A DNA stretch of 64,000 nucleotides from Rhodocaloribacter litoris (GTDB lineage: Bacteria > Bacteroidota > Rhodothermia > Rhodothermales > ISCAR-4553): assembly GCF_011682235.2 (NCBI RefSeq), contig NZ_CP076718.1, forward strand, positions 1,254,693 through 1,318,692, given 5' to 3'. The position numbers were made by a program, and so were the translations under genes. Below, piece after piece: positions 48,105 to 51,110 of this stretch. The notes under the pieces were generated by a model, which worked only from the letters and a program-made list of their open reading frames with translations, was not told the origin of the DNA and did not search any database. Numbering within the stretch: the first letter of the stretch is position 1; each line of letters begins with the position of its first letter.

Positions 48105-48590
48105 ACAACCGGCCCGAAACCGAATCCCACACGGGCGACGCGCGTCCGGGTTCCCCGTTCCGGGTCGCTTTCCCTTCAACCGGAACGGGGAACCCTGCGC
48201 GTTTCGCGCCTTCGCGGCAACCGGGGCGGGCGCGTCCGGGTATCCGTCCTCCTGAAAATGGGTCCGGTTCTTGCGAACCCCTGTCGCCGGGACTCGACCT
48301 TGCACCGGAGATTCCGGATATTGCCTCCGTTGAGCCTCCCCCGGATAAATCCGGGAGATTCCTGCTTCACCGACAGTAGCCTCGCTGACCGAAATCAGCG
48401 CTGGTCTTACACCGTCTCCACAGGCTGTCACGGTCGCTCCGACCGCCGGACCAAAGCACGAGACGATTCTGCCAAAGTTCTCGGCTGGCCATTCATCCCT
48501 GGTTTAAGAACCGGGGATCTGGACGTTCGGCCGCGTCTGGACGCGGAACGCGTCCATTTTGCCTGTGCCACACCCCAACGTTTCTTATGT
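48105..48590. other. Non-coding stretch before the MITE-like element
   Basis: No credible gene lies here. Short open frames occur on both strands (for example 48258-48608) but lack codon bias and recognisable domains, and one runs into the repeat. It has a CCCGGAT-AA-ATCCGGG palindrome (48340-48355) and a GGACGCG-GAA-CGCGTCC hairpin followed by ATTTT (48539-48560), which might terminate a transcript from the DUF4399 gene. Part of this tract may be an old decayed sequence. Confidence 0.5.
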
Positions 48591-48850
48591 ACTGATGTTA
48601 CGCAGTAGGCGACGAAGCCGTCCCGTTGCTTCCCTTTCGCTTCGTGGCGGGCCCCTCGACCAGGGAGAGGGCGACCCCCATCCCCCCTTCGGGGACCTTC
48701 CCCCTGCAGGGCCGCCGGGTGCGGCCAGGGGGAAGGGCCTGGGCCGAGACGATGCGGCCATGCAGCCCCTCCCCTTGCGAAGGGGAGGTGTCGCGAAGCG
48801 ACGGAGGGGTAGTCCTGCTATCCCACAGGTTTCAACTGCGTAACATCAGT
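48591..48850. mobile_element. MITE-like element with 16-bp terminal inverted repeats and 5-bp target duplication
   Basis: A 260-bp non-coding unit. The left end ACTGATGTTACGCAGT (48591-48606) is repeated exactly in inverse at 48835-48850, and TATGT flanks it on both sides (48586-48590 and 48851-48855), the usual sign of transposition. Inside are long hairpins: CCTTCCCCCTG with CAGGGGGAAGG (48696-48706 with 48726-48736), plus a smaller GCCGC/GCGGC stem, and CCTCCCCTT-GCG-AAGGGGAGG. No transposase is encoded, so it would need a helper element elsewhere. Its right end is 38 bases from the start of the next gene. Confidence 0.85.
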
Positions 48851-48853
48851 TAT

Positions 48854-48873
48854 GTAAACAGCTGTAAACAGCT
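48854..48873. repeat. Tandem duplication of a 10-bp unit next to the MITE-like element
   Basis: GTAAACAGCT occurs twice in a row (48854-48863 and 48864-48873), overlapping the last two bases of the right TATGT target duplication. It sits in the putative promoter/leader of the DUF5687 gene and may be a repair scar or a protein-binding pair. Confidence 0.8.
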
Positions 48874-48888
48874 TCGTTTTTCGCCCGG

Positions 48889-50418
48889 ATGCCTGCCTTC
48901 GCGACGTATCGCCTGCTGACCCGAAACCAGTGGCGGATCTTTCTCCGCTCGCTGCGGGCACGCCAGAACCTCTTCGTCTGGAGCGTTTTTGGCATTATGG
49001 GGCTCTATCTGGGACTCACCCTGATCACGCTCGGGCTGTACTTCGAACGGTTTGCCGGGTTGCTCGCCCCTTCAGGGGATCCCGTGACGGTGGTCAACAC
49101 CTACCTGCTGCCGGTGTTCATCGGCCTCTTCGGCCTTCGCTTTCTCTTCCAGCAGACGCCGGCGCTCCGGTTTCAGCCGTACCTGCACCTGCCCATCGAG
49201 CGGGCGCGGCTCGTGCGCTTCTTTCAGGCCACATCGCTGCTGAGCCTGCACAACGTCTACCCCCTGCTGTTCTTCGTGCCGTTCTGGAGCCGGCACGTTG
49301 CAGGGCACTACCCGGCAGGCGGGGCGGCCGCATGGCTCCTGGGGGTATTGCTGGCCCTCGCCGCCTCCAACTTCGCCAACCTGCTCGTTCGCTCGGTTCT
49401 TACCCGGCACGAAGGGCGTTTCCTGCTGGGCTTCGGCGTGTTGCTCTCGCTCATCTACCTCGACGAGCTGCTCGGAACCCGGTACGTGCAGGTCTTCTCC
49501 GCCTACCTCTTCGGCGGGCTGCTCGCCGGCGAGACGACCGTCCTGCTCCTGGTGACGGCTCTCCCGGTGTGGATGGTGCTGGCCTCGAACCTGATGCTGC
49601 TCCAGCGGCTGCACGGCGGCCTGTACCTGCCGCGGTCCGGGACCGCGGTTCCGGCCCGCCGGACGCGGCGCCTCCCGCTGCTCGAGCGGGCCGGTCTCAC
49701 CGGCCGGCTCATCCTGCTCGAACTGCGGCTGATCTGGCGCAACCGCCGTCCCCGCCACTACCTGCTCCTTTCGCTGCTGTTCTCCACGCTCTACCTCGTC
49801 TTCCTGCTCGCCAACCCCTCGCCCGGAGGAGACGTCATCCTCGGCGGCATCATCGGGCTGTTTGCCTCCGGCGGGTTCGTGCTCAACCACGGCCAGCTCA
49901 TGTTCAGCTGGGAAAGCAGCCACTTCGACGGGCTCCTGGTCCGGCCGCTTCCGGCGCGGGCGCTGATCCGGGCCAAGCTGCTGCTGCTGCAGGCTTCCTG
50001 TCTCCTGCTCTTCGTCGCCAGCCTGCCCCTGTTCCTCTGGCTGAAACCGGCCCTGGTGAAGCTCCACCTCGCTTTCCTCTTCTACAATGCCGGCATCACG
50101 ACGGTGCTGGTGATGCTGCTGGCGCTGCGCAACCGGCAGCCCGTCGACCTCGCCCGCAGCGGTGCCTTCTTCAACTACGAAGGGTTCTCCACCGCCCACT
50201 GGCTCTGGTTCTTCCCGACCGCCCTGCCCCCCTCGATCGCGCTGTTCGCCCTGCGCGACACCCCCGACACGGGGCTGCTCCTGCTCGGCGGCCTGGGCCT
50301 GATCGGCCTGCTGGCCACCCCGCTCTGGATCTCCTACTTCGCCTCCCGCTTCGAACAATGCCGCCTGCGCATGGCCGAGGGCTTCCGCCGGCGGCGCACC
50401 TGGACCCCATGCACGTAG
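48889..50418 (+). CDS. DUF5687 family ABC transporter permease-like protein
   Basis: A 509-residue polytopic membrane protein with about ten to twelve hydrophobic segments. The wording FLRSLRARQNLFVWSVFGIMGLYLGLTL, TPALRFQPYLHLPIERARLVRFFQATSLLSLHNVYPLLFFVPFW and NHGQLMFSWESSHFDGLLVRP is characteristic of DUF5687, the permease of a Bacteroidota-type ABC system. The ATPase gene follows with a ten-base overlap, so they act together as an exporter; the cargo is unknown. No clear ribosome binding site precedes the ATG, and the promoter must lie in or after the MITE-like element. Confidence 0.88.
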   Translation: MPAFATYRLLTRNQWRIFLRSLRARQNLFVWSVFGIMGLYLGLTLITLGLYFERFAGLLAPSGDPVTVVNTYLLPVFIGLFGLRFLFQQTPALRFQPYLHLPIERARLVRFFQATSLLSLHNVYPLLFFVPFWSRHVAGHYPAGGAAAWLLGVLLALAASNFANLLVRSVLTRHEGRFLLGFGVLLSLIYLDELLGTRYVQVFSAYLFGGLLAGETTVLLLVTALPVWMVLASNLMLLQRLHGGLYLPRSGTAVPARRTRRLPLLERAGLTGRLILLELRLIWRNRRPRHYLLLSLLFSTLYLVFLLANPSPGGDVILGGIIGLFASGGFVLNHGQLMFSWESSHFDGLLVRPLPARALIRAKLLLLQASCLLLFVASLPLFLWLKPALVKLHLAFLFYNAGITTVLVMLLALRNRQPVDLARSGAFFNYEGFSTAHWLWFFPTALPPSIALFALRDTPDTGLLLLGGLGLIGLLATPLWISYFASRFEQCRLRMAEGFRRRRTWTPCT

Positions 50419-51110
50419 ACGTACACGGCCTGAAGAAGACCTTCGGCACCACCACCGCGCTCGACATCCCCGAGCTCCACATCGCCCCGGGCGAGATCGT
50501 GGGCCTCGTCGGCAGCAACGGGGCCGGCAAAACCACGTTCCTCCGCCTCGTGCTCAACCTGATCGAGCCCAGCGCGGGCGCCGTCTACCTCGACGGGCGC
50601 AACGTGGCCGAACACGAAGACTGGAAACGCCACACCGGCTCGTACCTCGACCGCACCTACCTCATCGACTACCTGACCGCCGACGAGTACTTCGACTTCA
50701 TCGGAAGCCTGTACGGGCTCTCGCCCCAAGAAACACGCGCCGCCCTGCAACCCCTTCAGGCCTTCTATCCCGACGAACCCCTCGGCCGGACGACCCGGTT
50801 CATCCGCGACCTCTCGATGGGCAATGCCAAAAAGATCGGCATCATGGCCGCCCTGTTCGTCCGCCCGCGCCTGCTCCTGCTCGACGAACCGTTCGCCAAC
50901 CTGGACCCCCCTTCCCAGATCCGCCTCAAGCAGCTCCTGCGCGTGCTGCACGCCGCGCACGGCACCACGATGATCATCTCCAGCCACGACCTCCTGCACG
51001 TGACGGAGGTGTGCCACCGCATCACCCTCCTCGAACGGGGACGCATCGTGCGCGACAAGGCCACCTCTCCGGACACCCTGCACGAGCTGGAAAAATATTT
51101 CACCTCCTGA
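50409..51110 (+). CDS. ABC transporter ATP-binding protein, partner of the DUF5687 permease
   Basis: A 233-residue ATPase that starts at the ATG at 50409, ten bases inside the permease gene. Walker A is VGSNGAGKTTFLRLVLNL, the signature motif RDLSMGNAKKIGIMAALF, Walker B LLLLDEPFANLDPP, and the H-loop lies in ISSHDLLHV. The overlap and joint reading order give a two-component exporter of the ABC-2-like class. Substrate and direction are inferred from the family only. Confidence 0.93.
   Translation: MHVDVHGLKKTFGTTTALDIPELHIAPGEIVGLVGSNGAGKTTFLRLVLNLIEPSAGAVYLDGRNVAEHEDWKRHTGSYLDRTYLIDYLTADEYFDFIGSLYGLSPQETRAALQPLQAFYPDEPLGRTTRFIRDLSMGNAKKIGIMAALFVRPRLLLLDEPFANLDPPSQIRLKQLLRVLHAAHGTTMIISSHDLLHVTEVCHRITLLERGRIVRDKATSPDTLHELEKYFTS

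Follow-up and report, generated by a model that had tools for sequence, protein, structure and literature searches.

The stretch of DNA analyzed here (the window) comprises 64,000 nucleotides, i.e., bases 1254693-1318692, of the closed 4.50 Mb genome of Rhodocaloribacter litoris (G000, contig C1). Its forward strand carries an exporter operon in which the end of a DUF5687 permease gene (48889-50418; PF18940, E-value 9.2e-93; start codon assigned by reading frame) is overlapped by the gene of an ABC ATPase (50412-51110, forward strand; PF00005, E-value 3.3e-23). Upstream of the permease gene lies a unit of 260 bp (48591-48850, forward strand) that leaves 38 bases between its end and the start at 48889. 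The left terminal inverted repeat (TIR) of this unit, ACTGATGTTACGCAGT (48591-48606, forward strand; the next bases are AGGC), is 16 nt long and 100% complementary to the right TIR (48835-48850, reverse strand), which together with adjoining bases forms the 19-mer ACTGATGTTACGCAGTTGA. Even when three mismatches are allowed, the 16-mer arm is found only at these two sites of the 64-kb window (0.13 expected). The TIRs are directly flanked by TATGT on both sides (48586-48590 and 48851-48855), an exact 5-bp identity with a chance probability of 0.0016 at such spacing as computed in the window, and comparison of flanks across copies of the unit (see below) marks it as a target site duplication (TSD). 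Because the small open reading frames across 48591-48850 show no support for coding, we regard the unit as non-coding. The right TATGT shares three bases with a tandem 10-bp duplication, TGTAAACAGC at 48853-48862 and again at 48863-48872 (forward strand), which belongs to the host flank and not to the unit itself.

The interior of the unit is dominated by two hairpins. Following a left shell (48607-48672, forward strand) that is common to the two-ended copies when compared by eye, hairpin P (ACCCCCATCCCCCCTTCGGGG..CTTCCCCCTG..CAGGGGGAAGGG; 48673-48739, forward strand) has a stem of 14 nt that is 93% paired (48693-48706 with 48726-48739), and hairpin Q (CCCTCCCC..AAGGGGAGGTGTCGCGAAGCGACGGAGGGGTAG; 48767-48812, forward strand) has a stem of 9 nt that is 100% paired (48768-48776 with 48780-48788). 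The predicted RNA fold of the whole unit reaches -150 kcal/mol (z = -6.2 versus dinucleotide shuffles), to which the 16-bp ends contribute a part, while an Rfam search of the window gave no match. A preliminary description of this DNA had portrayed a non-coding 260-bp unit with exact 16-bp TIRs, a TATGT duplication, strongly folding internal hairpins, a tandem 10-bp duplication straight after it, and the permease gene 38 bases further on, and our analysis bears out this anatomy.

The same description had proposed that the unit resembles a miniature inverted-repeat transposable element (MITE), which could be checked by looking for several copies that share their ends but differ in their flanks and for a full-length insertion sequence (IS) with matching ends. 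Both were found. The genome of R. litoris contains 44 full or partial matches to the unit, including ca. 12 two-ended copies in both orientations, and simple full copies measure 242-262 bp. A search for the 14-bp end with up to two mismatches gave 28 matches in the genome compared to 3 for a reversed control pattern. At eight copies, we detected exact and mutually different TSDs, six of them 5 bp long (aactg, tcata, gaatc, tatgt, tacgg, and cttta) and two 6 bp long (cgtttc and tttttg); by a rough binomial count, the probability that all eight are coincidental is around 4e-20. These different, exact duplications of 5 or 6 bp define a true MITE family. They also refute the idea that the unit is ancestral intergenic sequence or a palindrome that arose by chance, for which exact 16-bp arms would not be expected either and to which we assign a negligible probability. 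There is no sign of current activity, with the closest copies being 96% and 93% identical, and no DNA similar to the unit was found in plasmid and phage collections.

Some copies deviate from this simple architecture. Two larger ones, near 4300 kb and 1743 kb, contain the inner module twice, and some others are enlarged by nested elements. In two MITE copies, the Q hairpin is interrupted by a different IS of ca. 1.5 kb that has ends CTTACCTTTACCCACAA and a 481-aa reading frame (L226 at ca. 2558643-2560160 and L022 inside 4060921-4061442), with the 9-bp duplications TTGCCAAGG and CCTTCGCAT; the second insertion is a shortened one and includes a few N. Furthermore, the MITE copies at 944710-945436, 4091576-4092123, and 2328891-2329292 of the R. 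litoris contig and at locus L225 of genome G164 harbor a nested, non-coding element with ends TTGACAGGGGTAGG, which in three of them sits at ATGCGAAGG of one and the same hairpin. Two types of transposon have therefore targeted the same hairpin. The one MITE copy of G164 with a nested TTGACAGGGG element carries it at the same hairpin position as its counterparts in R. litoris (944.7 kb and 4091.6 kb). Since these are likewise nested but have different outer duplications, the simplest reading is that the MITE and its nested TTGACAGGGG element moved as a composite in one unit. The sharing of this composite between families of one order suggests horizontal transfer.

The MITE ends lead to a particular group of IS elements. 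We scanned 84,980 species genomes (257 Gb, both strands) for the 19-bp right end and obtained 64 stretches against an estimated ca. 2 expected, mostly from Psychromonas and from Anaerolineales/Chloroflexi, with further matches in Colwellia, Methylobacter, another Methylococcales genome, Tsuneonella, and a Saprospiraceae metagenome-assembled genome (MAG). Psychromonas sp. CD1 has an IS of 1131 bp (L173:5860-6990) in which both ends are exact, with one of them identical to the entire 19-mer, and which encodes an intact 355-aa transposase of the IS701 family (NCBIfam NF049921, transpos_IS701_2; 346.7 bits with a cut-off of 250). The identity between the MITE and this IS covers the first 17 bases at the left end and the first 20 at the right end. 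Beyond the 16-mer, the IS continues with AGTAAGAC at the transposase start (MITE: AGTAGGCG) and with AGTTGAGAC at the opposite end (MITE: AGTTGAAAC), so that its two ends diverge from each other much like those of the MITE. The left MITE end is similar to the transposase-start ends of IS copies in Psychromonas CD1 and Colwellia (..AGTAAGAC and ..AGTAGCAC, respectively), in both of which ACTGATGTTACGCAGT(TGA) is identical. No exact target duplication flanks the CD1 copy, and the Colwellia copy (L207), which has the same length, is flanked by TAAATA. The target duplications are thus of comparable length, with 5-6 bp for the MITE, the TAAATA of Colwellia, and 4-6 bp for five IS701 copies in genome G167. 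The latter have ends of the type TAGGA(C/G)TTACGCAGTTGA and match a second type of MITE end in R. litoris, CAGGAGTTACGCAGT, as seen, e.g., in the copy at 2177493-2177698 with the duplication TTCCT.

The full-length IS with matching ends resides in other genomes and not in R. litoris itself, where the NF049921 model had 0 matches (7 of 114 members of the order do match) and where the closest protein match had an E-value of 0.03. Another member of the order (G237) has a frameshifted transposase adjoining this very end that scores 226.9 bits, just below the NF049921 cut-off of 250. As a candidate mobilizer encoded by R. litoris, we considered the sole PF13546 type of transposase in the genome (three copies) and rejected it because its ends, AGCTCGACTTTGTCC, are unrelated to those of the MITE. 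The MITE family may hence be stranded or have been mobilized by a lost or visiting IS. With NF049921 absent and the PF13546 copies ending differently, its direct mobilizer in this lineage is inferred; an intact IS that has precisely these ends was encountered in distant phyla, and the direct source was not observed in the lineage itself.

Short elements with these ends occur elsewhere, too. In Psychromonas sp. Urea-02u-13 (L165), the transposase start is fused to the C-terminal part in an element of 287 bp that is an internal-deletion derivative of such an IS. Genomes of Chloroflexi/Anaerolineales contain non-coding elements of 87-269 bp with these ends and duplications of 5-6 bp. Among them, those of the Chloroflexi genome Dive96_bin10.145 (L167, L177, L203, L216, and L219) share the same IS701 ends, measure 269 bp where complete, and contain C-rich hairpins including CCCCATCCCCCC as found in the cargo of the window copy. 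The two kinds of interior share a 13-mer, CCCCATCCCCCCT, but homology between those of the Chloroflexi MITEs and the window unit was not supported, since 26 of 500 shuffles reach this level of similarity. Many 19-bp matches in the Psychromonas MAG SW_4_36 (L157, L164, L169, L184, and L200) are located close to the ends of contigs, at most a few hundred bases away, which is what a multicopy IS701 element that breaks the assembly would produce.

The MITE shell encloses a separate module. No recognizable IS sequence or transposase remnant was detected in the interior, most of which is the two-hairpin module with P followed by Q (around query positions 83-225). The left shell is absent from free-standing modules of relatives, with most matches beginning at query position 83, and matches in a genome of the same family that lacks the TIRs (G001) as well as the majority in G164 are confined to the module. 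Hairpin Q alone reaches up to 94% identity in the former genome, and G164 has a tandem array (L149, 1244-2387) of 6.9 units of 167 bp that are 97% alike. The flanks of this array contain minisatellites of 7 and 14 bp. The module is therefore composed of multicopy palindromes that are paired and clustered independently of the MITE shell, and its presence outside of shells and in an array indicates that the inner hairpins represent a REP/BIME-like repeat in its own right rather than decay products of an IS. Stem Q is bordered by GGAG, CGTC, and GTAG strings (as judged by eye) and varies in form. Across copies, it occurs in two well-paired versions (TCGC/GCGA and GCCC/GGGC), which is no proof of compensatory change because mispaired intermediates are common. 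We considered a RAYT transposase (PF01797) as the driver of the module in R. litoris and rejected it, as PF01797 had no match in this genome while the control search was positive in 6 of 14 genomes.

Given that both G001 and G164 contain the P/Q module in the absence of the ends, in G164 even as the 6.9-unit array with its 167-bp period, the whole unit could primarily be a REP/BIME cluster in which the ends are just one more palindrome. We consider this very unlikely because ends, spacing, and exact 5- or 6-bp duplications co-occur in eight copies, the ends are common to IS701 elements, and the genome has no RAYT. Instead, the ends, the copies with their duplications, the matching IS elsewhere, and the free-standing module together make us highly confident that the unit is a MITE with ends of the IS701 family (NF049921 subgroup) that carries a REP/BIME-like cargo. 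An IS701-type transposase would recognize ends of ca. 16-19 bp in trans and insert the unit, with a 5-6-bp duplication of the target, into gaps that are relatively AT-rich and in many cases close to promoters. The two-hairpin module, which exists on its own, was presumably captured between IS701 ends, and the mobilizing transposase would since have been lost from R. litoris.

This family belongs to a known kind of MITE and is connected here to a specific IS701 subgroup; its independent hairpin cargo is unusual. Like other bacterial MITEs (reviewed in PMC10969869; see also MITEAba12, PMC6382973), it is short, non-coding, multicopy, and intergenic, with TIRs, TSDs, and a related IS elsewhere. 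The text of that review does not mention IS701, a full-text search of the literature revealed a single paper pairing MITEs with IS701, and the 15-mer end sequence was not found in the literature text searched. The likeness to IS701 elements of the NF049921 subgroup extends to the ends and the 5-6-bp duplications, whereas the MITE lacks a transposase remnant, has the hairpin module as its interior, and is not accompanied by such an IS in its own genome. A repeated module between MITE ends in intergenic regions is also known from BrickBuilt of Porphyromonas gingivalis (PMC4596501), though its unit is an internal minisatellite of 23 nt compared to the two-hairpin unit of ca. 140 bp described here, which is present once or twice per element and exists outside of the MITE as well. 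Similarly, the GTAG and CGTC superfamilies of REP/BIME sequences (PMC3733652) resemble our module as GC-rich palindromes that form alternating pairs and tandem arrays and serve as IS targets, but the module is larger, lies inside an IS701-ended shell, and occurs in a genome without RAYT. CGTC REPs likewise have no dedicated RAYT, and how they spread is a question left open by the same study (PMC3733652); travelling as MITE cargo is a possible route for REP-like modules without a transposase of their own. Our results connect the MITE family of this lineage to an IS701 subgroup with its intact form in Psychromonas (Gammaproteobacteria), and the same ends on Chloroflexi MITEs suggest that these ends have been transferred widely. 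It is a much bolder and rather improbable proposition that IS701-type ends are a general cross-phylum vehicle that brings REP-like modules to the 5' leaders of housekeeping genes and that the hairpins influence expression there.

For the host, the window copy may now be part of the leader of the DUF5687 gene or the source of its promoter. This role is in line with the preliminary description, according to which the element supplies or replaces part of the promoter or leader, and it is plausible in view of the position of this copy and of others. Since 38 bp are less than a usual promoter plus leader, transcripts of this gene must either start inside the unit or extend across it. Other copies are similarly close to apparent start codons, i.e., of genes encoding a nagZ-like GH3 protein (ca. 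20 bp), dnaJ (ca. 21 bp), Gcw_chp (ca. 30 bp), comEC (ca. 37 bp), panC (ca. 53 bp), and adenosine deaminase (ca. 108 bp), and in Porphyromonas, the BrickBuilt MITE contains promoter elements and is transcribed bidirectionally (PMC4596501). However, these distances were read by eye and only copies with clear genes, supported by flanking frames and Pfam, are named, so the proximity amounts to a trend rather than a test; further copies are located at the 3' ends of genes or well away from starts. Proximity may moreover require nothing but a choice of AT-rich targets because the GC content of the site flanks is 51-63% compared to 67% for the window, and a scan of 48105-48950 for sigma-70-like promoters, which does not cover promoters of the Bacteroidota type, found none. 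That the window copy is functional for the host and controls the exporter operon through a promoter or structured 5' leader is thus a tentative idea to which we give somewhat less than even chances. A search for an empty site at orthologous loci gave none that could be read, with the contig of the closest DUF5687 ortholog (in G001) ending inside the gene and more distant orthologs having ca. 50% protein identity. If the leader-proximal copies matter, a single transposon family would have altered the leaders of dnaJ, the nagZ-like gene, panC, comEC, and the exporter operon in one genome.

The tandem TGTAAACAGC flank forms a weak hairpin with a T-run (AGCTGTAAACAGCT TCGTTTTTCG), but terminator-like sites are no evidence of function here because two were found and 1.2 are expected. 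Just upstream of the MITE, the palindrome TGGACGCGGAACGCGTCCA (48538-48556) is terminator-like by pattern and similar to the inner repeat GGACGCGTTGCGCGTCC of the nested TTGACAGGGG element.
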